Source: an uncultured Lachnospira sp.
GTDB lineage: Bacteria; Bacillota; Clostridia; Lachnospirales; Lachnospiraceae
DNA length: 64,000 bases
Reading direction: 5' to 3'
NCBI GenBank assembly: GCA_934359185.1
Contig: CAKRLE010000003.1
Span: forward strand, 201,785-265,784
The translations under genes and the position numbers were made by a program. The notes below the pieces were generated by a model. It saw only the letters and a list, made by a program, of their open reading frames with translations, was not told the DNA's origin and made no database searches. Positions 6,901 to 53,692 of this stretch are shown piece after piece (position 1 is the stretch's first letter; every line of letters begins with the position of its first letter).

Positions 6901-7447
6901 AGATATCAATTGCACTATTTGATGAGCCAACATAATAAGTATTAGCTTCTGTCAATTCAAATGTATCTTTATAATATCCAGCAGCCGTACGCTCTGTAAT
7001 AGCCTTCTGTGTTCCAGTTGGATCCATTACCTTAAGCTGTCTTGCAGCATCCTTTGTATACCAGTAAACTGTAACATTAGTAGATGCTGTTGTTGTAAAA
7101 CCTATACAAGCTTGTCCAACCTTTGCTCCACCACCTGTACTTAATTTTCCTGTGGCAGTATATCCATCAAATCCACTGTCTGTCCAGCTTCCTGATGATA
7201 CCGTCGAACCTCCACCACTTTTACTATAGACAGTAAAGTATCCTGACTTGTCTGTAGCTGTCCATGACTCTGTCGCATTGGCTTCATGACCTGTAATATT
7301 ACTCATATCAAGAGTATATACAGTACCATCCGCTTTCGCTTCCTGCACACCCATACCAGCAAAATCCAATGGTACTACACCCACTACCATCAGTGCCGCC
7401 ATGAGGCATGCAACTATCCTTTCTTTGAACCCACGTTTCCTGTTCAT
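956..7447 (-). CDS. Wall-anchored pectin methylesterase / pectate lyase
   Basis: A 2163-residue secreted enzyme for pectin breakdown at the cell surface. In order: signal peptide (1-39, ending EAKADG); N-terminal beta-rich, possibly carbohydrate-binding domains (about 40-730); two fibronectin type III domains (about 741-830 and 846-926); an Ig-like domain (about 940-1020); a CE8 pectinesterase (about 1025-1335) with the Asp motifs YQDTL and GNVDFMWG and the Arg motif YLGRPY; a PL1 pectate lyase (about 1400-1770) with VDHCTFF and the catalytic-Arg block RMPRVRFGTAHVYN; a Ser/Asn/Gly/Asp linker (about 1850-1890); a membrane-proximal domain; and a C-terminal SPKTAD motif, hydrophobic helix and KADEKKRA tail, as in sortase substrates. 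Demethylation and eliminative cleavage are therefore combined in one protein. AAGGAGGG sits just before the ATG. The gene is monocistronic. Confidence 0.93.
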   Translation of the reverse strand: MNRKRGFKERIVACLMAALMVVGVVPLDFAGMGVQEAKADGTVYTLDMSNITGHEANATESWTATDKSGYFTVYSKSGGGSTVSSGSWTDSGFDGYTATGKLSTGGGAKVGQACIGFTTTASTNVTVYWYTKDAARQLKVMDPTGTQKAITERTAAGYYKDTFELTEANTYYVGSSNSAIDIFGVVVEEQSATGEKISAEIRYDGDALVSLSGKYDADQITLKASKDQIVFTQEPNTEKITLATLSDNVYAGTSSLKAVFDTDNKKVVIKNNSDKEVLSIPYLVEGYLNAPAIGGGESYDFTKGQIFDADVVTISDKSSPDGYILLSKKNNAKLDKNANTHGMYATTGFTFTVKVPAESMAKFTITGCMYNTAPVTAEYYVNDSDKKVITISEGQTSAEAPSNVIKYVNTSAEEQTLKIDVNANGSFIHAVDYKVEDVPNTVSGSVGAAFAGNKLTFSSKSYSAEAEIDAEGKYIVDLKRGVEYTVSIDNAKYSLDDTLDLTNAAVGEAITKNFSPELIPDVVKHPENAKAELSVINMPGDGTGAGSLTVKELGQTLSMTQVGGGLPTNSMTATKLSMYAFPATADANTLEADIVLSYDSSAGTSKFVAFGVINEQNGDYKAMTSAIRSNNDVVMLYSKKATELLGKSSNTAVPAAAEEKLHFKVTKGADGITLEVVNAAGKSNPKTMKYDANYVSSASDNLMYGLILNNVTATVTNMVYTAADGSVIYDQNTYYDPMGIAPVISSVSAVPAADRTKITVSWTGDEAKYDGKYVLQVLKPGAAEWTDVATELKDTTYEYPVSATEGGNYKFRVCGTLGNSKELNIKNRNAWVESSVAYIEPALSIPVITLSYVSSSNSVDLSWTAASGATKYEVYRRSSDETDAKVIATVEGTSYKDTTVTAEVPYYYSVKAVSNDNFSPLSEEAWTLPTDGHSGSYDENVPLFVTKRSYNTVFNDKIIIEGIAGAPGTVSVYVNGTKQQTAAVAKVYDTFTFDKNITLEKGRNEVKLVLEYNNGLKVEKTLNYVYLSDYDYVVDASFTGTAGDTTAYGAPEYKTVTEAIAAAGSASGTKVIFIRNGEYNEKIKVSTPDITLIGEDSEKTRIYYDTADCVDISNPPDVRYAFSVNAGANNFTAENLTIENSYAYTGKGGNESAEAFYSEAGNSMLIGVRLLGYQDTLQVKKGNYYLQRCYILGNVDFMWGQTCKVIFDDCDLKFRYASAKNSGYFTAFNTDESYPYGVIYNNCRFTSESSCGGTKYYLGRPYQNKAAIAFVNCYMGSIINKDWGYSDWSGKELSSNLEVYEATRYYECGSYGAGYAVNVNRRQISQAGANELMGSDKAGWEAKASSLASSAYSGDKYVNNDGVVENAYDSSDKYSAYESDDTGLSKYNAEGFASTTGVTGGGLLKETNSNYYKVANGKEFLDALVKVKNSKGVPSVIEITSDINLGYNEVENKAEYPVSLFATHNEPLLSDTLKKSGVSKVYLQDITNLTIFSNNASSIKHAALDIKQSKNVIIRNIKFDELWEWDEATSGDYDVNDWDYMTIENGSTGIWVDHCTFFKSYDGVVDIKTDASHDTPMNITVSWCQFMPGSENDTFFNEVMTQLENNPGAYPYYKSLLDSGMTKQQIRDYAYGQKKTHLLGQNDEAETNRNLHVTFANNYYYDSMDRMPRVRFGTAHVYNCVMDAQYLFDARMSITNKDAAKHIVSNGASSTCNAKVLLENCYINGIMNALNSGNGSSPSGYINAINSLYYIKGVRYKLAPKVNNSLDASDRTLKVTDPVTFKSALGYSYVLRDAASLSSTVVPFTGAGVNNFSTLQWEKSSYIDTVESSSDAVYDNTGLPESNYTDTLGNESNSNNNGNNGSNNGSNGGSGSGSSDDYDSSDDSTDDVLTPDEIPGADVIKIDGTNFTQMGEISEGAAKIISSIDANGQITTGDAVLGTTETVTSTVIDKIINGKASNIAVFASQDASVSAEVINKLKETGKTLSIGVVDDNGKVNAIVTLDGSKLGNASSDFTLKITVDVKSNTVSKAASNAGIASDKYTVIDFNYSGKLPGTFKVAVNVAGKFADGTQLALYYNNESAGQLENQYQVTTVTGGFAEFAIDHCSQYVLVDVAAARSMITTSTIASPKTADAGHIVLWLMLMGAAAAAYFGIKASKADEKKRA

Positions 7448-30914: not shown

Positions 30915-30966
30915 GATAATCTCCCTTTGACTGTAACTATTTAGAAATTCTCACTGTTATTCCATC

Positions 30967-31169
30967 TTATAAATAAAGGGCATCACTTGTTAGTGATGCC
31001 CTTTATTTATAAGGTTGAACCACATCTCCATGCAGTTCATTAATTTAAAAAGTAAAGTTGTTTTTGAAAAATTTATAATGAGATTTTTAACTTGGTTTTA
31101 GTATATAAGTAAACGATTAACAAAGCATGTTATTTATGTTAATATGTAATTAATTAATTGTTAACAAAT
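30967..31169. repeat. Promoter/hairpin repeat element, copy A
   Basis: About 200 bp shared with copy B (33358-33568). It contains a perfect 21-bp stem with a TGTT loop (30967-31012), a second hairpin (about 31016-31040, GAAC...GTTC), an identical ~45-bp AT-rich block (TTTTTGAAAAATTTATAATG and on to TTGGTTTTAGTATAT), and the plus-strand promoter at 31117-31145. It lies between divergent genes, so the strong stem does not terminate either neighbour. Confidence 0.85.
31117..31145 (+). promoter_or_regulatory. Promoter in repeat copy A
   Basis: TTAACA, 17 nt, TAATAT. The same architecture and position are kept in copy B. It should drive the zinc-ribbon gene at 31195. Confidence 0.65.
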
Positions 31170-31194
31170 AATGAACGTAAAAAGGAAGTATACC

Positions 31195-31929
31195 ATGGCA
31201 GATAACAATAATGAATTAGGCAAAGAACTGGCTCTTATTATTAAATTTGATAAAGAAATAGATTACAAAAACATTAAATCTGTTAAATCATTATATGACG
31301 ATATTACTATGCACAATACCTTCAATACAATTCTTGGCAAAAAATACGCTGCTAAACTAAAAGATATCATTGATGGCAATGAGAACGAAAAATGTGTATT
31401 CTGTAATAAATTTATTTTCAACCCTGTCAGGACAGTATTCTGTCCAGACTGCATTGAAAAAATCATTTCCAGAAATGACCACCCAGCAACTAAGCCTTTA
31501 ACTGCATCTAATCATAACATTTCCACTAACGCCACGCAAAGGCAAAACACTCCCCAAAAGAATAAAAAGCGATTTACAGTCATAACTGCATTTATTCTGG
31601 TATTATCTCTAACCATCTGGGGATTGCTCAACCTTATTATTCCTCATTCCAGAAATGCCTTGAAATATATTGGTATCAATAATAGAATCAATGGCGTAAT
31701 ACTCAACACTTCATCCAACACATCACTCGATATTGCCGGTATTCATGTTGGTGATGCCGCATCAGACGTCATACAGGTCATGGACAATCTAGGTGCCGTC
31801 TACGACTACACCAACTCCTCATCTGGCATTACCGAGATATATTATCTTACATACAAAAAACGCAATTACAAAATCGTATTTGATATCAGTGACAGAAAAG
31901 TCGCACGAATAACAGCTGAAATCAATTAA
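31195..31929 (+). CDS. Zinc-ribbon membrane protein of unknown function
   Basis: A 244-residue protein. The N-terminal cytoplasmic part (1-120) includes a four-Cys zinc ribbon (CVFCNKF ... CPDC) around residues 68-91. One transmembrane helix follows (about 130-150), then an external C-terminal domain (about 165-244) with a GIHVGDAASDVIQVMDNLG-type segment that recalls small PepSY/BLIP-like folds; this resemblance is weak. The ATG at 31195 has AAAAGGAAG upstream; an earlier ATG at 31171 lacks a site. It is transcribed from the promoter in repeat A. Its end overlaps the next, convergent gene by 8 bp. No function is assigned. Confidence 0.7.
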   Translation: MADNNNELGKELALIIKFDKEIDYKNIKSVKSLYDDITMHNTFNTILGKKYAAKLKDIIDGNENEKCVFCNKFIFNPVRTVFCPDCIEKIISRNDHPATKPLTASNHNISTNATQRQNTPQKNKKRFTVITAFILVLSLTIWGLLNLIIPHSRNALKYIGINNRINGVILNTSSNTSLDIAGIHVGDAASDVIQVMDNLGAVYDYTNSSSGITEIYYLTYKKRNYKIVFDISDRKVARITAEIN

Positions 31930-32350
31930 TATACTCCCTGATTTTCTTCTCACTGTTAAGGCCGCACGCCACAACTGTCGACAAAATCATATAACGCACA
32001 ACATTTTTGGCTATCTCATCTTCAAACATTGCCTTCATCCTTGCAGGATAGCCCGACACCAGAAAATGCACATTATATTTGTCAGCTTTTCTTGATATAA
32101 ATGCACTTATATACAGACCATTGAGTGCTGCCGTTACAATCTCCTCATCCGTAACTGGCACATCTATCTTATATCCCTTTGATACAAATGTAACCTTTCT
32201 TCCGTTATCTTCTTTATCAATCTTAAAATTACCGTCCGCAATCTCCGCAATTGAATAATCCATCGTGTGTGTCATCATCGCTGAAAGAACATCCGTCTCA
32301 AGATTGTTGTCCGTTATATATTCATAAGCTTCATTTGGTGATTTAAACAT
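31922..32350 (-). CDS. Hypothetical protein, 142 residues
   Basis: A soluble 142-residue protein without recognised family. The sequence alternates charged helices and strands (for example DGNFKIDKEDNGRKVTFVSK) and has a mildly hydrophobic C-terminal segment (VVRYMILSTVVACGL). It lies 34 bp after the YitT gene with a ribosome binding site (AGGAGG-like, GGAGGC), so the two are probably cotranscribed. It converges with and overlaps the end of the zinc-ribbon gene by 8 bp. Confidence 0.65.
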   Translation of the reverse strand: MFKSPNEAYEYITDNNLETDVLSAMMTHTMDYSIAEIADGNFKIDKEDNGRKVTFVSKGYKIDVPVTDEEIVTAALNGLYISAFISRKADKYNVHFLVSGYPARMKAMFEDEIAKNVVRYMILSTVVACGLNSEKKIREYIN

Positions 32351-32383
32351 ACAGCCTCCTAATGTCGTTAAGTATCTACCTAT

Positions 32384-33268
32384 TTAATCCTGCGGAATAT
32401 CATGGAACCTTCCGTCCAGCTCCTGCGTCTTTACAATATTAATAAATGCATGCTCATCAATTGAACGTATCAAAGGTATCAGCTCTCTTTTCGCCTCAGA
32501 ATTGATTACTGAGTATATAAGTGTTCTCTCCTTCTCCTCATAGCAGCCGACTCCCTTAAAAAGTGTCGCATCATGGTTCGTCATTTCACGGATTGCATGA
32601 TATATCTCATTTGATTTGTCAGATATTATAAATAAAGTTTCCTTCTGATAGCGCTTATAGAGCATCTGGATAATCTGTGTGCTGCAGAACTGGTAAATTA
32701 TAGAATATAAAGCAATCGACCAGCCAAATAACGCACCCGCAACAACAAGCATGATAACATTGCCCACAAGAATATAATTCCACGCATCAATTCCCTTCAT
32801 TCTTGATAAGAATATGCTTATAAAATCTGTTCCACCTGTCGTCGCTCCAACATTTAAACACAGACTTATTGCAAATCCATTAAGTAATCCACCAAATACG
32901 CTGATCAGCATAATATCATCTGTGAACTGATATGGTGGCAGTATATCCACAAATACACTCGAAAGTATAATAACAACAATAGAATACAGCGTAAATCTCC
33001 TACCTATATATCTGTACGCAATGTAAGCCGGAATACAATTCAAAATCACATTGAATACTGTAAATGGAATATCAACCCCGATAAAATCCAGCCCAATCTT
33101 CTGCAACAAAAGCGATAGTCCGGAAAATCCTCCCGGAAATAATTCTCCCATCTTGGCAAAGCAACGGAGATTCCACGCATAAAATATCGATGCAAACACA
33201 ACAACGAATATTCTGAACACCTGATAAAATTTAGGATGCCTTAACTCTAACGATTGAAACATATTCAC
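32384..33268 (-). CDS. YitT-family membrane protein
   Basis: A 294-residue protein with five or six hydrophobic segments (about 10-190) and a C-terminal soluble DUF2179 domain (about 215-290). Family landmarks are FPGGFSGLSLLLQKIG near residue 42 and the GATTGGTDFIS segment near residue 140. The YitT family (PF02588) is widespread in Firmicutes with no firm biochemical role. It is preceded by repeat element B, whose minus-strand hairpins would lie in its 5' leader about 90 bp upstream. Confidence 0.87.
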   Translation of the reverse strand: MNMFQSLELRHPKFYQVFRIFVVVFASIFYAWNLRCFAKMGELFPGGFSGLSLLLQKIGLDFIGVDIPFTVFNVILNCIPAYIAYRYIGRRFTLYSIVVIILSSVFVDILPPYQFTDDIMLISVFGGLLNGFAISLCLNVGATTGGTDFISIFLSRMKGIDAWNYILVGNVIMLVVAGALFGWSIALYSIIYQFCSTQIIQMLYKRYQKETLFIISDKSNEIYHAIREMTNHDATLFKGVGCYEEKERTLIYSVINSEAKRELIPLIRSIDEHAFINIVKTQELDGRFHDIPQD

Positions 33269-33357
33269 GCACCTCCTTATGTAGAATTACGCATTTATAT
33301 TAATATTATTATACACATTCAATGTACTAATTCAATAATTCCCATGCAGCCGCATAG

Positions 33358-33568
33358 CATAAATAAGGGGCATCACTTATCAGCGACGCCCCTTATTTAT
33401 GGAGTAGAACTGCATCTTCATACAGTTCATAGTTTTGAGAAAAAAGTTTTTTTGTTTTTGAAAAATTTATAATGAGATTTTTAACTTGGTTTTAGTATAT
33501 CGGTAAACCATTAATAATGCATGTTATTTGTGTTAATATGCAGTTAACTAATTGTTAATAAATTATGA
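33358..33568. repeat. Promoter/hairpin repeat element, copy B
   Basis: Second copy of the element at 30967-31169. The main stem (33358-33401) has two positions that are A-C mismatches on the plus strand but G-U pairs on the minus strand. The second hairpin (GAAC...GTTC, about 33407-33430) is kept by changes that also pair on the minus strand. The AT-rich block and the plus-strand promoter are conserved. Confidence 0.85.
33511..33539 (+). promoter_or_regulatory. Promoter in repeat copy B
   Basis: TTAATA, 17 nt, TAATAT, matching the promoter in copy A. It drives the small gene at 33678 with a ~130-nt leader. Confidence 0.6.
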
Positions 33569-33677
33569 ACATGTGTATATTTGTTAAATTTTCAACAAAT
33601 TTGTTTACTTTTGCACTTATCAGTCCTATAATAATTCACGAATAAAAGGCACATACCTTATGAAAGAAGGAATTTTT

Positions 33678-34034: not shown

Positions 34035-34088
34035 TAACTTAATTTTGTAATTTGATTGATTTCAAGCTAAATGTGATTTAATTATACT

Positions 34089-34152
34089 AATGCCCCATAG
34101 TGTCAGTGAAACCATCTTGTTCAAATATGGTTTCTTAATGACACTATGGGGC
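34089..34152. terminator. Long bidirectional terminator
   Basis: TGCCCCATAGTGTCA pairs with TGACACTATGGGGCA, with an inner AACCA/TGGTT stem. It lies between convergent genes (34034, plus; 34159, minus). Confidence 0.8.
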
Positions 34153-34158
34153 ATAATT

Positions 34159-36390
34159 TTATGATTCACGCCAATTCACATAACCAATCAAAATTGTCAT
34201 TAACATTAACATAATAATACCCATCAATAGAATACCATTATTATCTCCTGTTTTTGGAGATTCACTATTATTTACCTGCCCTGCAAAACTTACAGCTGCT
34301 GTTTCTGAGATATTTCCCGATGTTCCACCAGCCATACCAGAACCGGATATATTCCCTGTATTTTCTTCCGGTATTCTATCATCATTATTATTATTATTGT
34401 TGTTATTATTGTCGCCATTATTGTTGCTGTTATTGTTATTATTATTGCCACCATTATTATTACTGTTATTGTTGTTATTATTGCTGCCATTATTATTATT
34501 GCTGCCACCACCACTTTTAACAACAGTAAACTCGGCTGTTGCAGTTCCATTCAGTGATACAATGCTTATACTATGATTTCCTTCTGACAAAGACACTATA
34601 TATGATGGCGTAAGCGTAACTATAGTACTTCCTTCTTTCAACGTATAATCTTTATCCTTTGTGATAACATTTCCATCACACTCTACCCTCTGAAATTCGC
34701 TCAACGGAGCACTCGAACGAAATGACACAGTTGTATTTCCTGACAAAGAAGAATTACTAATATTAATTACAGTTTTATTCCCATCAAGGATTACTGGTTT
34801 CACAAGTTTCTCCAACGCGACACCATACTCAAGAACCTGTCCGCAGTCACTGCAATATACATCTCCTGTGTAACCGTACTCATCAAATGTAGGATCTTTC
34901 TGTCCCCGACGTATTGTATGAATATGGTTATGTGCATTGATTTCTCCGTATTCATTGCCACAAATATCACACACTGCTTTATGTATACAATCAGCTTCTC
35001 CTCCAGAATGTATATGGCTCTGATATTCCCCACCTTCTATAGAAAATGTAAGCTCATTATCATCTATACTGATAACCTTAATCTTTATCTTATCTTTAAC
35101 CTGGATTGTATCTCCAGCTCCCAGTGCAGCATCTGACTTAGTTGCCTGAGTTCCACCAAGAGCTTCATAATTCCAGCCATCTTCCCCTTTATATGTATTG
35201 CTCGGAAAACGCATTCCCTCATTAGCAAGATAACATACAAGCCCTGATTTCAGGTCAAGGTTCATCCCAGACACATTGGCCCCATCTGTACGTGTAAGCT
35301 TCTTTGTCTGAGAATCATATTTGTTGCCACCATTTCCAAAATTTCTATATTCAAGATATAATACCTTTTCGATTCCAGGTATAGCTATCTTATACCCTGC
35401 GATATCAGATTCACTTGCACTAATACCAGCAGCTTTAAGCGTATATGGCCCATCAACCTCTATAGTTTTAAGACTTTTTTCATCAACCCAGCCAAGTGCT
35501 TCTTTTTCCTTAATAGTTATTCCCTGAGGCACTGGTGATATAGCATTTGACATGGCAGACATATAATAAATAGGAGAAACACCAACATTATAATACAAAT
35601 CTTTCAGTTCAAATATATGCCCCATCTCATGTATCGGTGTCTTAAGCGAAACTATAGGCTCATTATCAGACGACTGATACAGATTATCATATGAATTAGT
35701 AAGCTGGACATAATACTTGCTTTTTATAATTTTACCACCAACATTAATTTCAATATAATCTGAATAATCCTTATAATTCCATAACGGATCATTACGATAA
35801 ACCGATATATTCTGTGTTGTATTCTTATATATAACAGTAATTGCATCTATCATGCCATCACCATTTTTATCAAGCTCTGAATAACTATACTGTCTGTTAC
35901 CATCTACATCAGTTATAGCATTGCCATTACTTACAGCATTGTTTACAGCATTAGACCAGTCCTGACGTAATTCATACATTCTGACTGCCTTCTCACCAGA
36001 TGTCTTATATCCAATTGGATTATCTGCACTATATGCCGCATAATAGCCTCTTTCATGAGGCAGCTTTATAGAACCGCCATTATCATATATGTATACACTA
36101 TTCATCCGGAGTTTGTTTCCTGATATACTTCTATAATAGTCAGAAACACAATAGTCCGCTGTATTATATGAATTATCCGTTATCTTCCTTACAGAATTAC
36201 CATCATATATATCATTAATAAATTCATCCTCGTCCGCAAATCTTGCAAACACAATGAGATTCGTAAAATTACTGTTATCCGCTTCTGCTGATACACTGAC
36301 CAGACCTGCTGTATCAGCCAACGTAATGCATAACAAGAACGATGCAATAGTATACACTATATGTTTCATACGTATTTTTATCATCTTCAT
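34159..36390 (-). CDS. Secreted M6-type metalloprotease with cell-wall sorting signal
   Basis: A 743-residue exported zinc protease. A signal peptide (about 1-36) is followed by the M6 (immune-inhibitor-A-like) catalytic domain (about 40-450) with HEMGHIFELKD around residue 250, where HExxH plus the later Asp matches the family. A Cys/His-rich stretch (about 455-520, CDICG and CSDCG pairs) looks like a zinc-binding module. A beta domain, a very Asn-rich linker (about 620-665) and a C-terminal SPKTGD motif with hydrophobic helix and short charged tail complete it. It is probably attached to the wall by a sortase. Monocistronic with AAAGGATG before the ATG. Confidence 0.85.
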   Translation of the reverse strand: MKMIKIRMKHIVYTIASFLLCITLADTAGLVSVSAEADNSNFTNLIVFARFADEDEFINDIYDGNSVRKITDNSYNTADYCVSDYYRSISGNKLRMNSVYIYDNGGSIKLPHERGYYAAYSADNPIGYKTSGEKAVRMYELRQDWSNAVNNAVSNGNAITDVDGNRQYSYSELDKNGDGMIDAITVIYKNTTQNISVYRNDPLWNYKDYSDYIEINVGGKIIKSKYYVQLTNSYDNLYQSSDNEPIVSLKTPIHEMGHIFELKDLYYNVGVSPIYYMSAMSNAISPVPQGITIKEKEALGWVDEKSLKTIEVDGPYTLKAAGISASESDIAGYKIAIPGIEKVLYLEYRNFGNGGNKYDSQTKKLTRTDGANVSGMNLDLKSGLVCYLANEGMRFPSNTYKGEDGWNYEALGGTQATKSDAALGAGDTIQVKDKIKIKVISIDDNELTFSIEGGEYQSHIHSGGEADCIHKAVCDICGNEYGEINAHNHIHTIRRGQKDPTFDEYGYTGDVYCSDCGQVLEYGVALEKLVKPVILDGNKTVINISNSSLSGNTTVSFRSSAPLSEFQRVECDGNVITKDKDYTLKEGSTIVTLTPSYIVSLSEGNHSISIVSLNGTATAEFTVVKSGGGSNNNNGSNNNNNNSNNNGGNNNNNNSNNNGDNNNNNNNNNDDRIPEENTGNISGSGMAGGTSGNISETAAVSFAGQVNNSESPKTGDNNGILLMGIIMLMLMTILIGYVNWRES

Positions 36391-41442: not shown

Positions 41443-42144
41443 TTAAATTTCTGGTTCTTCTTTCATAATAGACTCAATAATACATCCTACATTACTGGTA
41501 ACTACTCCCTTACACTTATGAATATCCTGATTAATCTTTTTTTCTTGAGAAATAGCATATAAGACTTTTTCAGCTAAATCTCCTATATTGGAATTCTTTT
41601 TTGCATTCATACCAGTAATATCACGTAAAACATCATATGCATGATGATAACCACCATTTTCATCTTTAGATAAAAATTCACTTTCATGACCTGATATATA
41701 TTTTTCAAAGCTATCCTCTTCATGAAGAATCAGAAATAATTCAAAGCCAGGATTCGTAACTGCGGCTATATCAGACTTTTGAATTTCTTGAATAAGTTCA
41801 TCATATCCCTGTACCTTTTCTTCAAAAATATCTGCATCAAAAACAACAACCATCTTATCTCTTTCCGCATCAAATCCATTATTCTCAATCTTTTTCTGTT
41901 CAAATGCAAAATTCACAAGATTCTTGGCAAATGAAATGTCTTTATCTGCTCCTGTTTTCTCCCATAAACGAATATCAATAAGAGGATGAATACCGAGTTC
42001 TTTCCTCATATCAATTAATCTTTTAAAATAAAATGTCTCAGTATTTGCACCTTCACATATAAAGAAATATTTTCTAAATGGCTCCCTCTGTTCTTCTGTA
42101 TCACTTTGTCGTTTGTTCCAATTTGTATATGTGTGTACCGGCAT
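41443..42144 (-). CDS. RloB/AbiLii-family protein (TOPRIM-like)
   Basis: A 233-residue protein of the RloB family (PF13707). FFICEGANTETFYFKRL near residue 30 is the TOPRIM-like Glu motif, VVVFDADIF near residue 105 the Asp motif, and NPGFELFLILHEED a family signature. It is a putative nuclease effector. It starts 4 bp after the ATPase gene, with AAAGGAGG inside the end of that gene, so translation is coupled. Together they match AbiL of Lactococcus and RloA/RloB pairs linked with restriction loci: an ATPase that senses phage and an effector nuclease. The ATG at 42144 is chosen by the ribosome binding site. Confidence 0.82.
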   Translation of the reverse strand: MPVHTYTNWNKRQSDTEEQREPFRKYFFICEGANTETFYFKRLIDMRKELGIHPLIDIRLWEKTGADKDISFAKNLVNFAFEQKKIENNGFDAERDKMVVVFDADIFEEKVQGYDELIQEIQKSDIAAVTNPGFELFLILHEEDSFEKYISGHESEFLSKDENGGYHHAYDVLRDITGMNAKKNSNIGDLAEKVLYAISQEKKINQDIHKCKGVVTSNVGCIIESIMKEEPEI

Positions 42145-42148
42145 ATTA

Positions 42149-43504
42149 TCAAACCTCCTTTTTGAAAGTAAACTGTTTGAATACCGGAATCGCACCATAC
42201 CGTCCTTCCAAATATGCCTTGCTCAGTTTTTTATCATACCGTTCCTTAAATCTATCTAAAGAATAAATCTTGCTGGCATTTACACTATCACGTTCCACAA
42301 ACCATATTTCATCTCTACGGAATAATTCCTGATCCATAATGGTATCTTCATGTGTTGTAAATACTAATTGCACTCTATCATCTGCATGCACTTCCATAAA
42401 CAATTTCAAGAAATGCTCTGTCAACTTAGGATGCAGACTTCTTTCAAGTTCATCTACAACAAATACAACATCTTCTCTTTTACTCATCAACATGTCTATC
42501 AAATCAAAAAGTCTTTTTGTTCCATCTGATTCATCATTAAAGCTAAAATCAAATATAGATTTGCCATGCTTCAAAGCAAGTGTTGTAATTTCTGGTTCTC
42601 CAGCTTCTTGAATACGGATATTAAAAAAGCCATCATCAAATCTCCAAGTCATTTTCAACTGTGGTAAATTTGTCATTTGCATTTGTTTCTTCAACGTATC
42701 AAAAATCTCAGAAATCACTTCTTTAGGAAGCATCTGACTCATCTCTTCTACAGTAATCTGCTTTGTTTTAATTTCACTTACCCCTGTATCAAAAGTTCTT
42801 ATCAGATTACTGATTGTTTCCAAAGATTGATCATTATAGTATGCATCCGTGTTAGAAATACCTCTGTTAGGATTAATTACGATAATATCATTCATAATCC
42901 ACTGAAATGTTTTTTTGAAAAACAGCAGTTTAGAATTGTCGTCGTATTTTTTGCCTCTATTCATCTCTGCCAAAAACAGTTGTGCATCATGTCCTACAAA
43001 ATCCTCTGCATATACAGAAAATCTATTTTTTTCAGAAGCACTTAGATTAACACCATCGCCTAGTATAGGAGATTTATCCGTTTCTCTTAAAAAAAGATTA
43101 TGCGCAGAGCCATCCTGCATCAGCTCATACAACCATTCCTCTGTAATTTTTCTTTGATTCAAAATTGCAGAAAAGCCATATGCATAAAATTTATCTTCCA
43201 CTGTGAACTGAAGTTCAAACACACTTTCCCTGCTCTGATTCTCTGCACAATTCCTGCAAAAATCATTTACAGATCTCACAGACAGCCCCTCTATAAGAGT
43301 ATTTTTCATAAAAGCAATAGCTTTAACCAAATTAGATTTTCCTGATGCATTTGCACCATATACAACTGCATTTTTTAAAATATTAGTTTGCTTAATTTTT
43401 ACTCTATGACTCTTGTTCGTCTGGATTTTGCTTGATGATATCAATGATAATTCTTCTCTCTGATCAAATGATTTGTAATTCTCCACTGACACGCACAATA
43501 ACAT
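42149..43504 (-). CDS. RloA/AbiLi-type AAA ATPase
   Basis: A 451-residue SMC/ABC-like ATPase (AAA_15/21 type). Walker A GANASGKSNLVKAI is near residue 52 and Walker B with downstream signature is VVFVVDELERSLHPKL near residue 345; TTHEDTIMD is the switch His region. The central part is the helical insertion typical of the group. The partner is the adjacent RloB-like protein. The ATG at 43504 has AGAGGTG upstream. The likely role is the sensor/motor part of an AbiL-like abortive-infection system. Confidence 0.83.
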   Translation of the reverse strand: MLLCVSVENYKSFDQREELSLISSSKIQTNKSHRVKIKQTNILKNAVVYGANASGKSNLVKAIAFMKNTLIEGLSVRSVNDFCRNCAENQSRESVFELQFTVEDKFYAYGFSAILNQRKITEEWLYELMQDGSAHNLFLRETDKSPILGDGVNLSASEKNRFSVYAEDFVGHDAQLFLAEMNRGKKYDDNSKLLFFKKTFQWIMNDIIVINPNRGISNTDAYYNDQSLETISNLIRTFDTGVSEIKTKQITVEEMSQMLPKEVISEIFDTLKKQMQMTNLPQLKMTWRFDDGFFNIRIQEAGEPEITTLALKHGKSIFDFSFNDESDGTKRLFDLIDMLMSKREDVVFVVDELERSLHPKLTEHFLKLFMEVHADDRVQLVFTTHEDTIMDQELFRRDEIWFVERDSVNASKIYSLDRFKERYDKKLSKAYLEGRYGAIPVFKQFTFKKEV

Positions 43505-43677
43505 AATGAGCACCTCTTTAACCATGATTATTAAATCTACTTCTACTGTTTATACTATACTCTTTATGCATGTATTATTCAACAACAAGCTTGTTTATTT
43601 AGAGTTATTTTCTCTATATGAGCATGTTATGTTTAGAATTATTCATAATAAATAAAATCTATATGTATCAACAAAAT

Positions 43678-44637
43678 TCACGTTTTTATTTTCCTATTAA
43701 TACTATCGCTAATATCTGAATCAATGGTCATATATTCTGCAACATCAGCAATTTTATCTACAGAAAATCCTGTTACCCTGACTATTTCACTTATTAGTAA
43801 ACCTCTATTCAACATTTTTTCTATACCTCTTAATGCTATAGGAGTTGAACTAACATTTGTCATTCCTGCTTTATTTATCTTATTCTGCAACGAATCAAAT
43901 ACAGCATATGCTTTTAACTGTTTTCCTTTGATATTCGTAAACATATATTTTCTTTCTTTATATATTTGCATCTCCATATATCTTTCAAACATAGATGTAA
44001 GTTCATCACTAATATATAATTGTATTGCATCATATCCATTATTCTTTATTAACAACATTTTTTCATTAATATCTACTGCATCAACAGGCATTTCCAAAAT
44101 AACGTTTGTCTTTAACCCATATGTAACCATTAGGTTGTAAATTATCTTTTGTCCATAAGGATAGAACTTTTTATCACTAAGATTATCAGCAAGTGCATTT
44201 ATTAATTTTTCTTGATATTCAGTAATAGGAAGATATATCCCTTTTTTTATTTCTTTATCTAAAGCTTCAATTATCCTTCTTATTATTTCCGTATGTCTAC
44301 ATCCATCTTCCATGCATGCACAATATATCTTCATCTTATTAATATGATTTTTATACAAAAAATCCATAGCACTAAGAAAACGATTTATTGCTTCTATTGA
44401 TTTTACTCTTTTACTGGTTTCAAAGTATAACTTTCCAGCCTGAACTATATCATTGAGACATACCGCACTTTCAAATAGCTCTTTTAAAGAATAATCAGGA
44501 TATGTATTAACACAATATGTTTCAAATGCAGCTATACATGATTTGTAATTATTTCGTTCATACTGCTTAAATATTGTTGTTCTATAAAAATCTTCCAAGG
44601 TTGAATGCAAAGCATCTTTTAACATTTCGTCCCCCAT
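43678..44637 (-). CDS. Degenerate tyrosine-recombinase-like protein
   Basis: A 319-residue protein whose C-terminal half follows the phage-integrase layout: LMVTYGLKTNVILEMPVDAV corresponds to the T-G-L-R-x-S-E box but has Lys in place of the catalytic Arg, and TPIALRGIEKMLNRGLLISE to the H-x-L-R box but without His. It is probably catalytically dead, or a diverged DNA-binding protein. The N-terminal half is helical, like a core-binding domain. The start may be 44637 or the ATG at 44625 (preceded by GGGGGA). A perfect palindrome lies 20 bp upstream. Confidence 0.55.
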   Translation of the reverse strand: MGDEMLKDALHSTLEDFYRTTIFKQYERNNYKSCIAAFETYCVNTYPDYSLKELFESAVCLNDIVQAGKLYFETSKRVKSIEAINRFLSAMDFLYKNHINKMKIYCACMEDGCRHTEIIRRIIEALDKEIKKGIYLPITEYQEKLINALADNLSDKKFYPYGQKIIYNLMVTYGLKTNVILEMPVDAVDINEKMLLIKNNGYDAIQLYISDELTSMFERYMEMQIYKERKYMFTNIKGKQLKAYAVFDSLQNKINKAGMTNVSSTPIALRGIEKMLNRGLLISEIVRVTGFSVDKIADVAEYMTIDSDISDSINRKIKT

Positions 44638-44657
44638 TATACTTCTATAAATTTATA

Positions 44658-44679
44658 ATTATACTTGTTTAAGTATAAT
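44658..44679. promoter_or_regulatory. Perfect palindrome upstream of the integrase-like gene
   Basis: ATTATACTT-GTTT-AAGTATAAT, a 9+9 inverted repeat, lies 21-42 bp before the gene start. It looks like an operator, possibly autoregulatory. Confidence 0.5.
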
Positions 44680-44819
44680 GGTATTATACAACTAATAAAA
44701 TGCTTTTTATGTCGAAAAATGTAACAACAAATTTTATTTTAAATATTAGCAGACAGTATAGTTTGTAGACAAAATTCAGATGTCCCCCCCGTTTGAGCTG
44801 GCAGTTAATAGCCTGTACT

Positions 44820-45482
44820 CTAATGTGCGTCGAACTCCTTCGCCATGGATACAATGCATGAAATGCTCGACCATTTCAATCCTAATAATCCGCAAAAATA
44901 TATCATCACTGCCGACCGCGGTTATGAGCCCTATGACCTGATTTTTCAGTGCGAACTCAAAAAACTTGGCTATGTATTCAGGGTTAAAGCTCCATCATCT
45001 GGAAAATGCATACTTACTTCTTCCGTGATGAACTCACTGACAATCAGGATGAGTTTGATATCAATATAGAGCGTTTTTTCACAGACAAATATAATAGAAA
45101 GAAAAACGCTGTAATAAACGTAACAATAACAAATACACCTACGATATTGATATATCAACTGCGCTAAAGCTTGCACGAAAATACTTTATTCGAAGAGATA
45201 CTGGCCCTGGCATTGATATAATCAGGCTTATGAATCAATATGTTCATGCAGTCAAAACGGAATTTCGTCAATTTGACCGTCCTCTCAGAGGAATTAGTGC
45301 CATCCATTTCCATTATCGATGACATTGAGCAATTTAATAACTTTTTCAGACAGATGTCAGCATCTGTCTATTTGTCATGCTCAAAAACAATGTTTTCCTT
45401 CCTATGTTCAATAATTCTACGATATATATACCATTATTTATAACACCGAACGATTTATCGAACATTTAGCTTAATGGCATTG
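44820..45482 (+). mobile_element. IS4-like transposase remnant, copy 1
   Basis: Broken transposase DNA. Pieces in order: MDTMHEMLDHFN ... ITADRGYEPYDLIF (the Asp motif region of IS4-type DDE transposases), after a frameshift FRDELTDNQDEFD ... ERFFTDKYN, then after an internal deletion of about 120 bp relative to copy 2 TYDIDISTALKLARKYFIRR and FRQFDRPLRGISAIHFHYR to a TGA. The segment from about 45100 to the end is identical to copy 2. The outer end reads CGAACATTTAGCTTAATGGC followed by ATTGCC. The 5' part is lost. Confidence 0.8.
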
Positions 45483-45498
45483 CCTTGTAGAACTTTAG

Positions 45499-46419
45499 TT
45501 ATGTTCTAATTTTTCGCCAAAAATTTCGAACATTCTTTATTGTAATATGATTCTGTAGTATCCCGCACAAATGCTTTCTGATTTCAACAGCATCATTTGA
45601 ATCATAGTAATAGAAATCGCATTTGTTCAATTTTCCATTCCGTGACAACTGAACAAACAACTGCTCATCATTACAAGCTGACAATCCTATTATATCAACC
45701 CTATCCTCAATTTGACTAAATTCTTTTATGCCATATCTTATATCACTATGCTCTTGACCATATTTTTCAACCCAATACCAAGTCATGATCCCATTGCAAT
45801 ACATATGCTTCCAATCTTCTGGCTCATCTTCATGACCAACACTTATGTCATCAAAGCTTCCATGAATATGATAAATGGGAACACTCCCCTCAAGATAGCT
45901 ATCCAAATTTGTATCATAATTTAATGTAAAAATTGCATCATAATTATTCAAAAATTTTTTTAATTTATCTGGAAAAACCTTATACAGCTCATTAATTTTC
46001 CCTTCATTATATATGGCATCTAATATAATCATCTGCATCAACTGTCGTTCTTGTTCCTTATTCCCAGAAAAATCTTGTATATGACTTGAAAGCTCATGTC
46101 CGAGGAAATAATCCTCTAGACCGATTTCACTAAAAGCCGGATTTGCTTTATAATAATTACGTACTCTTTCCATTTCCATTAGCAGAAATAAATAACCATC
46201 ATTCTCAGAAATGTTCCAAGTTCCTTTTATCACCTGATTGATTATATTCCTATTTCCATCGAAAAGTTTCATTAATGTTTCAGGTGTTTCTTTTAATATG
46301 TCTGTGTAACGTCCTGCCTGTATGTTATTGTGAACACGATCCAATATAGCTTTATTTCCACATACTCCTAGTCCTCCAAACTCTATATCTATCCCATTTC
46401 CCACAATCAATGATTTCAT
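45499..46419 (-). CDS. SIR2/AbiH-like domain protein
   Basis: A 306-residue soluble protein of the SIR2-like/AbiH superfamily. The Rossmann start is MKSLIVGNGIDIEFGG. Mid-protein motifs are IFTLNYDTNLDSYL and IYHIHGSFDD, as in SIR2-like effectors, and DRVDIIGLSACNDEQLF matches the late G-x-S-x-x-D segment. Such domains bind or hydrolyse NAD, or act in abortive infection. The ATG at 46419 lies 18 bp after the ART-like gene with GAAGGTG upstream, so the two form an operon. It ends 17 bp from the IS remnant. The exact activity cannot be deduced; the usual catalytic His/Asn set needs structural alignment. Confidence 0.7.
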   Translation of the reverse strand: MKSLIVGNGIDIEFGGLGVCGNKAILDRVHNNIQAGRYTDILKETPETLMKLFDGNRNIINQVIKGTWNISENDGYLFLLMEMERVRNYYKANPAFSEIGLEDYFLGHELSSHIQDFSGNKEQERQLMQMIILDAIYNEGKINELYKVFPDKLKKFLNNYDAIFTLNYDTNLDSYLEGSVPIYHIHGSFDDISVGHEDEPEDWKHMYCNGIMTWYWVEKYGQEHSDIRYGIKEFSQIEDRVDIIGLSACNDEQLFVQLSRNGKLNKCDFYYYDSNDAVEIRKHLCGILQNHITIKNVRNFWRKIRT

Positions 46420-46437
46420 TTCTAAGCACCTTCTCAC

Positions 46438-46935
46438 TTAATAAATTCTTTTAAAGTTATCACCTACTACTGCCAATATTTCCTCTTCATCTCCATTTTT
46501 TGAAAAATACGCAATAACATTATCTTTTGAAATAGTTGCTTGAAACATATGCGAAGGACCAAAATTCTTGGCTACATTTTTCAATAAACTCCAAGATATT
46601 CGTGGTTTTTCTTCATTCGGATCTTGACTACCACGATAAATTGTAATCATATCCGGAAATGCCTCATATTTTATCAAATCTTCTTCAAACATTATATCCT
46701 TCCTATCCACTCCCGAAAAAGCTTCTATTAAGGTATCCATTAGCACTTCGTCAGTATCTGTAACAAACAATTTATATAAGCACATTGCATATAGCTCTTT
46801 TGGTATTATAGTTTTTAAACTAATCAGCTTTTGAAACGCCTTCTCATTTTCCCAATCTTCTTGCAATTGAAATACTTCTATGCACTCTGAATATTTACCA
46901 ACTAAATCCTTAAATTTACTAAAATCAAGCATCAT
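46438..46935 (-). CDS. ADP-ribosyltransferase-like protein (putative toxin or modifier)
   Basis: A 165-residue protein with a helical N-terminal half (about 1-95). The C-terminal half follows the R-S-E layout of ADP-ribosyltransferases: ITIYRGSQDP (Arg), RISWSLLKNVAKNFG (Ser-x-Ser) and AYFSKNGDEEEILAVVG (Glu-x-Glu). This resembles small phage- and plasmid-borne ART-like proteins. No close named family is recognised. Two adjacent ATGs follow GAAGGAGGG; the second (46932) has better spacing. It is cotranscribed with a SIR2/AbiH-like gene, so both products may act on NAD. Confidence 0.55.
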   Translation of the reverse strand: MMLDFSKFKDLVGKYSECIEVFQLQEDWENEKAFQKLISLKTIIPKELYAMCLYKLFVTDTDEVLMDTLIEAFSGVDRKDIMFEEDLIKYEAFPDMITIYRGSQDPNEEKPRISWSLLKNVAKNFGPSHMFQATISKDNVIAYFSKNGDEEEILAVVGDNFKRIY

Positions 46936-47128
46936 TTCCCTCCTTCGATATATTCTACTTCTGATATACGACTACTTTTTCCTTTTTCAACTCACAACTC
47001 AATATTTTTTATTTATTTTGAACCATCAGGAATTTTTATTTTGACACTCTAAATCTGACTAAAAGGCATGTGCGTAAGCTCTACATAAACCACCGTATAA
47101 ATATTCACCTCATCTGATCCATAAAAAA

Positions 47129-47212
47129 TCAGATTTCCGAATGCCTATTAAGGTTACATGTTCCCTGCATCATCTCTGACCATGGCATAAGGTCTTCAAG
47201 GATGCTTTCAAC
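47129..47212 (-). mobile_element. IS66-like transposase C-terminal remnant
   Basis: Minus-strand reading ESILEDLMPWSEMMQ and a stop matches the L-E-D-L-x-P-W tail of IS66-family transposases. The same tail (FLEDLLPWSPKLP) occurs at 51973-52074. The rest of the 46936-47314 gap shows nothing else clear. Confidence 0.5.
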
Positions 47213-47314
47213 CTAAAAAGTGTCAAAGATGGAATTTTATATCACTTTTAACACATTTTCCAAATATATATTTTAGGTTTTATAAGTATTTTATAGTGTC
47301 TGTCACCTTGTACC

Positions 47315-47977
47315 TCATATGTCACATCTACTGTTTTCTAACTTTAAATCATATTTCTTATTCATTCGTGCAATCTTAACTGGCAATTCATATATGTAAT
47401 ACAGAATTGTCTCCATAAAATCAATCAGTTCAAGCACATCACTCTGCGATAATTTAATATCATCACCATGTGCACCAGAATTGCCAAGCTTTCTGATTAG
47501 GAAGCTGCATTTATCCAAAGTTTCTGGAAGAATATTCTTACTTACCATCTCTTTCAACATAGCTTCCAGATTATTCTTCTTGCTTCCACGCTCTTTGCAT
47601 ATCTTTTCCAAAACAAGCCGAATTGCTATCAGACTAACGTTCGAATCTATCTTTGATGTTTTTACTGCAGCCTGGTATGATTCAAGAATTGACTCAGGTA
47701 CATATATAAAATCATATCTATCTCTAGGATATTCTATAGATTCTTCTTGAAAATAATCACCATGAATATCAATCATACTATCATCAGAATATGTCTTGTG
47801 CAAAGAAACCTCCCTACATACTGGACATTCAAGCATCCTCCATATAGTATCCATTTCAAAGATTACTTCACCATCATCATAATCTGTATAATGCTGCTTG
47901 TGTTGAGCAGCATTTTTCAATAATCCCTTATTTCCACAATGCTTACATGTCTGTAAAATGTATTTCTCTTCACTCAT
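47315..47977 (-). CDS. DUF4145-domain protein with zinc ribbon
   Basis: A 220-residue protein. The N-terminal zinc ribbon (CKHCGNKG and CPVCREV, residues 11-56) is followed by a helical DUF4145 domain (about 95-205) with SLIAIRLVLEKICKERG and KLGNSGAHGDD, where the R-x3-E and A-H-G pattern is typical. DUF4145 occurs as a fusion partner in type I restriction subunits and as free proteins near defence genes, probably as an RNA- or DNA-handling accessory. It stands alone here, with about 200 bp of AT-rich DNA upstream. Confidence 0.75.
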   Translation of the reverse strand: MSEEKYILQTCKHCGNKGLLKNAAQHKQHYTDYDDGEVIFEMDTIWRMLECPVCREVSLHKTYSDDSMIDIHGDYFQEESIEYPRDRYDFIYVPESILESYQAAVKTSKIDSNVSLIAIRLVLEKICKERGSKKNNLEAMLKEMVSKNILPETLDKCSFLIRKLGNSGAHGDDIKLSQSDVLELIDFMETILYYIYELPVKIARMNKKYDLKLENSRCDI

Positions 47978-48202
47978 GATTGTTACCTCTTGTATCTATA
48001 TATATTTTATAATGCCCTGCACCTTATACTTATTCACGCATCCATCTTTTCTGTATCAAATCCACCATCAAATAAATATATAATTCCACTGAAAAGTTTA
48101 ACCTAATAACATTTAGTTATGTTTATTCAAATTTAATAAGCTCTAATTTTCCTCACAAACCTATATACTATAATACCTATTACCTTTTTCAAATCATCAG
48201 CA

Positions 48203-49519
48203 TTACAGCTTTTCCCCATTGCAAACAGCAATACATTCTTCCTTTATATCATCCGACAATTCAAAACTTAAACTTAATTCCCCCAAGCCACCAAATATGT
48301 ACCTATATATTTCCATCCATTTAGCTAATCCATTATCAAACTTTTCATTTTCTTCAACTCTATAATCTGCAAATCTACATACTAACTTGTTAATACTCTT
48401 GACCTCCTTGCAGAGTGTCATAAATATGTCGCTATTTCCATTCATAAATTCATTTTTTGCACTTTGATTCACAATTTCTAACACTTTAATTATTGGAACA
48501 AATAATGACATAACCCATCCATATTGTGTTCTGTCATCAAAGAACTGTTTTGAAGTTGTCTCCATATTCTGCTGATATATTATTGCATCTCTTAATGACA
48601 AATTATAATATTCACTTAATTCATTAACAATATTTTTAACATAATATTGTTCATAACTAGTTGAAAATACATCTATATTTTTCTGTTTAACTGATGGCAG
48701 ACATATACTTATATCAAAAAATTTGTTTAAGTACGCTGTTGAATCAAATCCTTGTCCATAATATTTAGATATTGTATACCCCAGTTGTTCTTTATTAATA
48801 GAAAATATAAAGATTATTCTATCGTCATCAAAGTAATGCTTTAATCGCTCCAACATTTCTATTGCATAACTAGGTTTACATCTATCAAGTTCATCTACAA
48901 TGATAATTAATTTCTGTGTACTTTCGACTATAATATCGTCCAATATTCTCTTCACACTTTCTCTGATTTCCTCTGCTGTTTTAATATCATTTAATAAATC
49001 GACACCTCTAAACTCATCCTTTATCTGCTTAATATTAACTTCACAAAACCTTGTCTTAATCGACGGCATAATATCTATTATTTTTTCTATTGCTGACTTA
49101 CTATTTATCTTGGTTATATTAATATTTTTTTCACCTTCTTTTACTATTATGTAGAGAAGTGATAACAATGGGTCATTATGACAATCATATAACCATGCAT
49201 TGTAATAAATTGGAAAATATGATTTACTTATTAAATCGTCTTCCTTTATAGTATTAATAAAATATTCTTCCATATTAGATGTATCTTCTTTTAATATCCT
49301 CTTTGTCATATACTTAAGAGTCCATTCAATCTGTCTGACATAAAATGTCTTTCCTTCTCCCCATCTTGCATCAAGGCTAATAAATACATTCGAATCTATC
49401 ATATCCAAGCTTTTTATAAAATTCTTCACTGAAGACATCCTTCCGTATTTATTCTCCTTAATAGACTGTAATACATTCTCATCTGTAGCATCTATATTAT
49501 ATTTTTTATAATTGCTCAT
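48203..49519 (-). CDS. KAP-family P-loop NTPase
   Basis: A 438-residue KAP NTPase (PF07693). Walker A WGEGKTFY is near residue 53, YYNAWLYDCHNDPLLSLLY near 110 is the KAP-specific segment, and Walker B LIIIVDELDRCKPSYAIEML near 205 includes the DELDR signature, with the sensor in IIFIFSINKEQL. The usual transmembrane insertion of many KAP proteins is absent. KAP NTPases are often found on prophages and plasmids and include anti-phage exclusion factors such as PifA. GGAGGTG precedes the ATG. No partner is cotranscribed. Confidence 0.85.
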   Translation of the reverse strand: MSNYKKYNIDATDENVLQSIKENKYGRMSSVKNFIKSLDMIDSNVFISLDARWGEGKTFYVRQIEWTLKYMTKRILKEDTSNMEEYFINTIKEDDLISKSYFPIYYNAWLYDCHNDPLLSLLYIIVKEGEKNINITKINSKSAIEKIIDIMPSIKTRFCEVNIKQIKDEFRGVDLLNDIKTAEEIRESVKRILDDIIVESTQKLIIIVDELDRCKPSYAIEMLERLKHYFDDDRIIFIFSINKEQLGYTISKYYGQGFDSTAYLNKFFDISICLPSVKQKNIDVFSTSYEQYYVKNIVNELSEYYNLSLRDAIIYQQNMETTSKQFFDDRTQYGWVMSLFVPIIKVLEIVNQSAKNEFMNGNSDIFMTLCKEVKSINKLVCRFADYRVEENEKFDNGLAKWMEIYRYIFGGLGELSLSFELSDDIKEECIAVCNGEKL

Positions 49520-52665: not shown

Positions 52666-53692
52666 TAAAGTACCTCCTCTATTTCCTGCTCATACAATTG
52701 AATAGATGTATCTATAATAGAATTATCAGGCATACCATCATGCAGATCACATATTTGTGCCTCCTGACCTTTATTTAAGGAAATACATTTCACTGTATTT
52801 TCTTTTTTTAGCGCAATTAAAAACAATTTTTTAATTACAAAATATGAATGACTGGTTATAAACACCTGAAGTCCCATCTCATTTGCTATATTGTCAATCA
52901 TATCCAAAAACTGGCATACCGCTTTCGGATGTAACGCAGATTCAATTTCATCAATAAAAATAATGGAATTTGTATTTAAATAGCCATTGGCAAGCAGTCG
53001 ATCCATTATAGCAATTTTCTTCACGCCTTCTGAAGTTGCACCAATCGAAAATTTTTGATTTTTTTATTTTTATAGTACCATTTACCATTGTTTTCATCAT
53101 ATTCTACTTTACCATCAATAACATCTCCAGCCACCTTGCGCAAATTCGCAAATACTGCATAATTTTTACCTCTGGATGGAGAAATTCTCAATGCTTTAAC
53201 AAGATCATAATAAGTATCATCAAAACCAAATGACTTATCTATCTCTCTCGATTTTAAAATAACCGAAAATAACGATAGTACTTCTTTGGCTGGTATAAAA
53301 ATAGAATTTCCTTCTTTACCATTTTCAATTGGCTCTACCATACCAACTTTACTAGCTGCGCTTTTTGAAAATTGATAATTTAACGCTATTTTATCTAATT
53401 TCATATGAAAGTCCAAACTTTCTTCTGCACTTCTGGATACAATGTCCCCCAACTTATCTACCTGAAATGTCCATCTCAATTTTTTTGACAAAATATCGTT
53501 TATAGGTGATATATCATCTCCTCTTTTATATTCTTCTAATGCTTTTACAGCAGAGTATAATGCTTTTAGCAAAAATGTTTTTCCTGTTCCGTTTTCACCT
53601 ATAATCAAATTTATATTTGAAAACTGATTGCACTCAAAGCTCTCTATCATACCGAAATTTTTCAGTTGTAAATCTTCAAGTCTATATGACAT
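52665..53692 (-). pseudogene. AAA (ABC/SMC-like) ATPase with frameshift
   Basis: Two open frames make one gene. 53021-53692 has the N-terminal part with QLKNFGMIESF and Walker A GENGTGKTFLLKALY (near residue 34). 52665-53024 has Walker B IIFIDEIESALHPKAVCQFL (20 residues) and the switch ITSHSYF. At about 53050 the run AAAAATTTTC breaks the frame; with one extra base the text reads FSIGATSEGVKKIAIMDRLL, exactly the linker expected in AAA_21 ATPases. The gene is either inactivated, slippage-controlled or an assembly error. The partner is the nuclease-like gene downstream. Confidence 0.75.

Follow-up and report, generated by a model that had tools for sequence, protein, structure and literature searches.

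Duplicated minus-strand elements in a 64-kb bacterial window: putative small RNA genes sharing a promoter with an apparently widespread RNA family

Introduction

Two similar stretches of non-coding DNA, here called copies A and B, occur in the window (the whole 64-kb stretch of DNA analysed) next to a CAP-domain lipoprotein gene and a YitT-type membrane protein gene, respectively, and they raise the question of what has been duplicated: a leader controlling the gene behind it, a gene for an RNA of its own, the remnant of such a gene or a mobile piece of DNA. The explanation judged probable is that A and B are duplicated and diverged genes for a standalone small RNA read from the minus strand, which would be roughly 130–140 nt long, with a leader free of pairing, then a hairpin and a second hairpin serving as terminator (Table 1).

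The window also encodes a secreted protein of 2163 aa with pectinesterase and pectate lyase domains (956–7447) and a defence-like gene cluster (41443–49519 and 53021–53692), for which the best PADLOC models are AbiLi (6e-85), AbiLii (3.5e-15), PD-T7-4, PDC-S20 (2.5e-50) and HEC-02A (1.5e-82). The gene between the two copies (31195–31929) has no Pfam family, and 5.8 billion proteins contain one homologue of it, which is 97% identical; a 23-nt inverted repeat (34083–34161, 87% complementary) between convergent genes is probably their shared terminator.

Table 1. Features of the two copies and their neighbouring genes in the window
Feature	Position	Strand	Basis
Copy A promoter repeat array, TTCATT-N5-TTAACA-N5-TTAATT-N5-TTAACA plus two weaker steps, period 11 bp	31106..31175	-	Promoter model of 27 loci, none from the window, E 3.9e-9
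Copy A -10 box TATACT	31100..31105	-	70 nt past first repeat
Copy A unpaired 5' leader, contains UCUCAUUAUAAAUUUUU	31060..31099	-	Identical to copy B leader
Copy A hairpin 1, GAACUGCAU GGAG AUGUGGUUC	31016..31039	-	Fold and two-copy alignment
Copy A hairpin 2, stem of 22 bp whose 3' arm is U-rich, putative terminator	30966..31013	-	Fold; terminator scan did not pick it
Copy B promoter repeat array, TTCATA-N5-TTAACA-N5-TTAACT-N5-TTAACA	33500..33569	-	Promoter model, E 8e-10
Copy B -10 box TATACT	33494..33499	-	70 nt past first repeat
Copy B unpaired 5' leader	33454..33493	-	Identical to copy A leader
Copy B hairpin 1, GAACUGUAU GAAG AUGCAGUUC	33407..33428	-	Fold and two-copy alignment
Copy B hairpin 2, 20-bp stem, putative terminator	33358..33401	-	Fold
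Promoter-like site of the YitT gene, TTGAAT-16-TATAAT	33308..33335	-	10 of 12, consensus match only
CAP-domain lipoprotein gene, start AUG-AGA-AAA	30159..30914	-	PF00188
YitT/DUF2179 membrane protein gene	32384..33268	-	PF02588, PF10035

The duplicated element

Pairwise alignment of the two copies, which are 2.4 kb apart, gives 83% identity across 212 nt and bears out the duplication described in the first-pass annotation; no third copy is present within the 64-kb window. Read from the minus strand, each copy is composed of an unpaired leader, a 9–10 bp hairpin and a terminator-like hairpin of 20–22 bp, and these folds are more stable than those of shuffled sequences (z −5.6 and −6.4 for the two copies); the plus strand of copy B folds well too (z −4.9). 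All 29 stem pairs in the two-copy alignment are retained on the minus strand in both copies, two of them through two-sided and five through one-sided changes, whereas the plus-strand reading retains 27 of 29 in copy A and 26 of 29 in copy B, so that all five one-sided changes pair solely on the minus strand, as the first-pass annotation had claimed of the stem substitutions. By our own estimate, the bias of these five changes, taken alone, has a chance probability of about 1 in 32.

The remaining differences are unevenly spread, with none at the 41 counted positions of the −10 and leader against 34 at 166 positions elsewhere (p 0.0006), and a run of 46 nt from the −10 onward is identical between the copies. 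This run is the block of about 45 AT-rich base pairs recognised earlier as common to both; its conservation holds, and it is in fact the minus-strand −10 and leader. A plus-strand promoter had also been proposed but is not supported, the promoter-like sites numbering 19 against 16.5 ± 3.8 in shuffled sequences, and the same scan of the region lent no support to an overlapping bidirectional promoter. Its rule returned no terminator-like site in the region because the U-rich tract sits within the stem; hairpin 2 of both copies is read here as a putative terminator. Upstream of the minus-strand −10 lies an array of repeats spaced by 11 bp, a feature absent from the first-pass annotation.

A 22-mer of the leader has no exact match among the genome contigs and viral contigs searched. 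At a lax Rfam cut-off, eight matches were obtained in 3 kb, all below the gathering score and mostly to microRNA hairpin models; these, including the best, mir-7552 (42 of 59 bits, E 6.1e-5), were taken as generic hairpins.

The closeness of the two copies, together with an almost perfect palindrome able to fold on either strand, would also suit a mobile or repeat DNA element of the MITE type, in which the palindromes matter as DNA. This is considered highly improbable, since the changes favour pairing in a minus-strand RNA, no terminal repeats were seen, copy A matched none of 50,697 phage records and none of 72,556 plasmid records, and the relatives described below usually have one promoter match per genome.

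The promoter and its spread

The genome sample consisted of 397 genomes of one family, that of G001 ('Clostridiales bacterium isolate SUG1695'), which appears to be the Lachnospiraceae. A blastn search with copy B gave matches in 60 of them at E ≤ 0.01, many weak; L031–L033, L035 and L056, and later L034 and L036, were inspected, and the remainder were taken as AT-rich noise. L032, L033, L035 and L056 are relatives that match upstream of the leader. L031 is no relative, L034 falls within an ORF and in L036 no promoter is evident. The relatives carry direct repeats in 11-bp steps of the type TTCATA-N5-TTAACA-N5-TTAACT-N5-TTAACA, and the distance from the first repeat to TATACT is 70 nt in A, B, L032 and L033 and also in L035 (gapless 88-nt alignment); in L056 the −10 follows after 48 nt, two steps fewer.

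A sequence-only promoter model (R1), built from a set that included A and B, matches 233 of the 397 genomes at E ≤ 0.01, mostly once per genome. A second model of 27 loci, drawn from the best 30 R1 matches with the window and seed loci left out, scores copy B at E 8e-10 (34.4 bits) and copy A at E 3.9e-9 (32.2 bits), with the next site in the window at 6.5 bits (E 0.37) and the best in 20 Markov-resampled windows at 9.6 bits; the test is not fully independent, since its loci were gathered with R1, which contains A and B. Both copies have the 88-nt repeat-array promoter with TATACT 70 nt past the first repeat. Among 299 genomes of the phylum, the promoter model matches five, four of them without the core described below.

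Direct repeats spaced by 11 bp are, as we take it, in the style of response regulators of the OmpR/PhoB family. A regulator of this family would bind the repeats and activate a promoter with a good −10 box that lacks a proper −35, and PhoP is a candidate. At 13 pstS loci of the same genomes the best four-box scores are 17–21, mostly inside the background of 300 random windows (15–20). Four of the 13 (L092, L099, L100 and L103) carry a different array, TTTACA-N5-TTTACA-N5-TATACY with TATACT 60 nt past the first box, which is possibly a Pho box of the sampled family.

Some promoter-model matches precede protein genes. Weak ones lie upstream of small lipoprotein-like genes (L254 and L257) and, by eye, of lipoprotein or secreted-protein genes (L315–L318), and L271 precedes the gene of a membrane protein that presumably resembles an LtaS-type N-terminus.

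The RNA family behind the promoter

In 96 of the 106 fetched matches, UUUUCAU comes after the promoter, then a hairpin that covaries and then CCUCC, the usual body being UUUUUCAUAAUA - hairpin - CUCCUCCC. A fixed pattern recovers this core in 77 of 86 matches (L061–L090 and L118–L176; L162 is counted, as its core is present and the pattern cuts it wrongly) and in 19 of another 20, the weakest at E about 2.4e-6; by chance, 200 nt would yield 0.004 (34 occurrences in 1.6 million strand-bases). The nine misses among the 86 comprise two at a contig edge, six with a partial core and L072 with CUCCUCCC only. The core is present in 29 of the 30 best promoter matches (all except L072) and in most later ones, and by eye 11 of 20 weaker second matches (E 0.0008–0.008) have a core-like body; a terminator-like hairpin often follows the core (by eye, uncounted). 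Local duplication is not confined to A and B, since two copies with the core lie about 220 bp from each other in G067.

The hairpin covaries strongly. Among 66 members, 89.2% of its cells are paired, a share that falls to 67.5% in shuffles and to no more than 44.8% on sliding, and its covariation score is equalled by none of 500 shuffles. Double changes occur in 10 of its 10 pairs, a number attained in 51 of 500 shuffles, and the other four measures of the control are attained by none of the 500. UUCAUAA and CCUCC are invariant among members, partly by construction, because the pattern required CAU and a C-rich run.

No Rfam 15 family reaches gathering score in the window or in eight loci, and 14 member loci give no match at E ≤ 0.05. 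The core model found a sole match among the 299 phylum genomes, G208, itself of the first family, a negative that is weak because 19 candidates were scored per genome. Literature searches found no published description of the RNA, of which an unnamed candidate may exist in supplements, and the term-matched passages of PMC8040213, PMC11109978 and PMC5171806 contain none. The family of putative small RNAs is widespread and apparently undescribed.

Neighbouring genes

The first-pass annotation had left a choice between a cis-acting leader and a small RNA family. The recurrence of the promoter in 233 of 397 genomes with an RNA-like body behind it supports a family of minus-strand small RNAs, and the neighbouring genes speak against a leader: of 89 relatives, 22 are followed by a gene on their own strand and 45 by one on the opposite strand, and for 22 no gene was seen in the stretch, some stretches being only about 1 kb long. 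The steady same-strand downstream gene of a riboswitch or cis leader is lacking, and the element is independent of its neighbours.

For the window itself, the possibility is that the RNA forms the 5' UTR of the CAP gene (copy A) and of the YitT gene (copy B), hairpin 2 being a regulated terminator. Both genes share the strand of the element and follow hairpin 2 at 53 and about 90 nt, no separate promoter was detected between hairpin 2 and the CAP gene, and the few weak matches before lipoprotein genes mentioned above (L254 and L257; L315–L318 by eye) fit such an arrangement. This leader or attenuator is nevertheless unlikely, given the 22 of 89 relatives, the promoter-like site of YitT's own after the hairpin (33335–33308) and the seven nearest YitT relatives, which have no such element upstream of YitT save a weak promoter match in G178 (E 0.22). 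With A as a standalone small RNA gene, read-through into the CAP gene 53 nt on may occur.

Position of copies A and B in the family

Copies A and B share with the family the promoter and, on the promoter's strand, the layout of leader, hairpin and terminator-like hairpin, by which they would belong to it, but they lack its core, CCUCC/UUUUUCAUAA: the arms UUUUUCAUAA and CCUCC, which in other members stand unpaired on either side of hairpin 1, are absent, and the core model (R2) scores them at chance level (E 5.9 and 8.6), its best site in the window (0.31) being elsewhere. Among the seven genomes nearest by YitT (71–79%), four have the core, namely G019 (L056), G010 (L192), G178 (L193) and G183 (L194, hairpin-less), and no core was recognised in G001, G002 and G342.

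A type resembling that of the window was found in the genus of G010, in which 16 of 22 genomes have a promoter match. By eye, the 20 matches comprise 13 canonical ones, five in or before apparent protein genes and two window-like loci, L300 in G714 and L301 in G717, in a genus other than that of the window. In blast against copy B, the loci of these genomes (also labelled L298/L299) match at 4e-13 and 2.4e-14 over query positions 7–113 of 226, that is, in the promoter and early leader only. The leaders of L300 and L301 contain UCUCAUUUUAAAUUU, where the window has UCUCAUUAUAAAUUUUU. AT-rich sequence, a hairpin and a long stem resembling a terminator come next. The two are longer (201–205 nt), with extra helices folded in the leader region. 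Both loci (L298/L300) are placed directly after a cyclophilin gene and near a class-II aldolase gene (fba, assigned for L300 by likeness), and since the canonical L035 is also placed between cyclophilin and fba genes, the window-like type probably descends from a canonical gene.

A core lost while the promoter was kept could also mark A and B as decayed remnants of the canonical RNA, inert or only binding the regulator. Such decay is decidedly unlikely in view of a leader that stayed identical as 34 of 166 positions elsewhere came to differ, of stems maintained by compensation and of the retention of the window-like type in G714 and G717.

Antisense to translation start sites

The body of the canonical family suggests how its members act. 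CUCCUCCC is complementary to GGGAGGAG and UUUUUUCAUAAUA to UAUUAUGAAAAAA, the unpaired arms being antisense to the Shine-Dalgarno (SD) sequence and to AUG-AAA-AA. Three hairpin-less members, L142, L194 and L253, are the antisense of SD-spacer-AUGAAAAA, with adjacent arms at the natural SD-AUG spacing: L142 is antisense to GGGGAGG-AUACA-AUGAAAAAA, L194 to GGGGAG-UAAA-AUGAAAAAA and L253 to GGAAG-AAAA-AUGAAAAAG. L261, identical in sequence to L262, lacks hairpin 1 and reads as the antisense of a GUG start. The usual form has the hairpin in the position of the SD-AUG spacer. From these arms and the natural spacing of the hairpin-less variants, the wider family probably blocks translation initiation, like Listeria LhrC. 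Acting in trans, the body would base-pair with the start regions of mRNAs, with an arm each on the SD and on AUG-AAA-AA, the hairpin would bulge across the spacer, and ribosomes could not load.

Starts of this kind are over-represented among exported-looking proteins (AUGAAAAA starts) in three of four genome samples of 360–400 kb under a crude signal-peptide rule. For ATGAAAAA starts, the counts among exported vs other proteins are 5/39 vs 7/245 in G717 (p 0.015), 8/35 vs 1/210 in G711 (p 6.6e-7), 9/60 vs 8/228 in G297 (p 0.0026) and 3/40 vs 7/289 in G248 (p 0.11). Ranking of starts by duplex energy gave little enrichment, with seven exported proteins in the top 20 against 4.3 expected in G297 and four against 2.4 in G248.

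The leader shared by A and B carries UCUCAUU, antisense to AUG-AGA, with which the CAP gene beside copy A begins, and for pairing with the leader the CAP start comes 4th among 42 starts in the window (z −2.7), a weak result. ATGAGA starts in G717 make up 3/39 among exported proteins against 9/245 among the others (p 0.22), which does not support a retuned arm in the window type. A bolder proposal is that the small RNA of one response regulator is a generic antisense of exported-protein starts (SD plus AUG-AAA-AA, the MKK start of signal peptides), throttling much of the secretome as a stress regulon in a large family of gut bacteria, and that in lineages such as that of the window the gene was duplicated, with its anti-start arm shifted to UCUCAU; this may be so, but it is advanced as a tentative idea that we would not expect to hold in full.

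Comparison with known systems

A report on Listeria monocytogenes describes LhrC1–5 as several copies that depend on the LisRK two-component system, with promoter elements upstream of −53, and whose CU-rich UCCC sites block translation of a surface protein target at the Shine-Dalgarno (PMC4132741). LhrC is the nearest working analogue, with its multiple copies, regulator-type promoter and action at the SD; the present family differs in its bipartite arms, anti-SD and anti-AUG-AAA, around one variable hairpin, and A and B are without a CU-rich site. LhrC is included in Rfam, whose scans matched no family in the window, in the eight loci (gathering score) or in the 14 member loci (E ≤ 0.05).

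RsaE/RoxS and FsrA are named in the same report as UCCC-type small RNAs of Firmicutes (PMC4132741). No Rfam match to them was found among the loci scanned here. They resemble the present family in setting an unpaired C-rich motif against SD sequences and differ from it in layout and promoter. AbcR1/AbcR2 of Sinorhizobium are reported to be tandem sibling small RNAs, homologues of which regulate ABC transporters (PMC3712013). These are alphaproteobacterial and are likened to A and B in their tandem sibling arrangement.

Significance

Two antisense arms, against the SD and AUG-AAA, around a freely varying hairpin would, if true, make this a small RNA aimed at a class of start sites and not at one gene. 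Since the sequence of the family spells out its likely mode of action, the proposal is testable in easily grown commensals.
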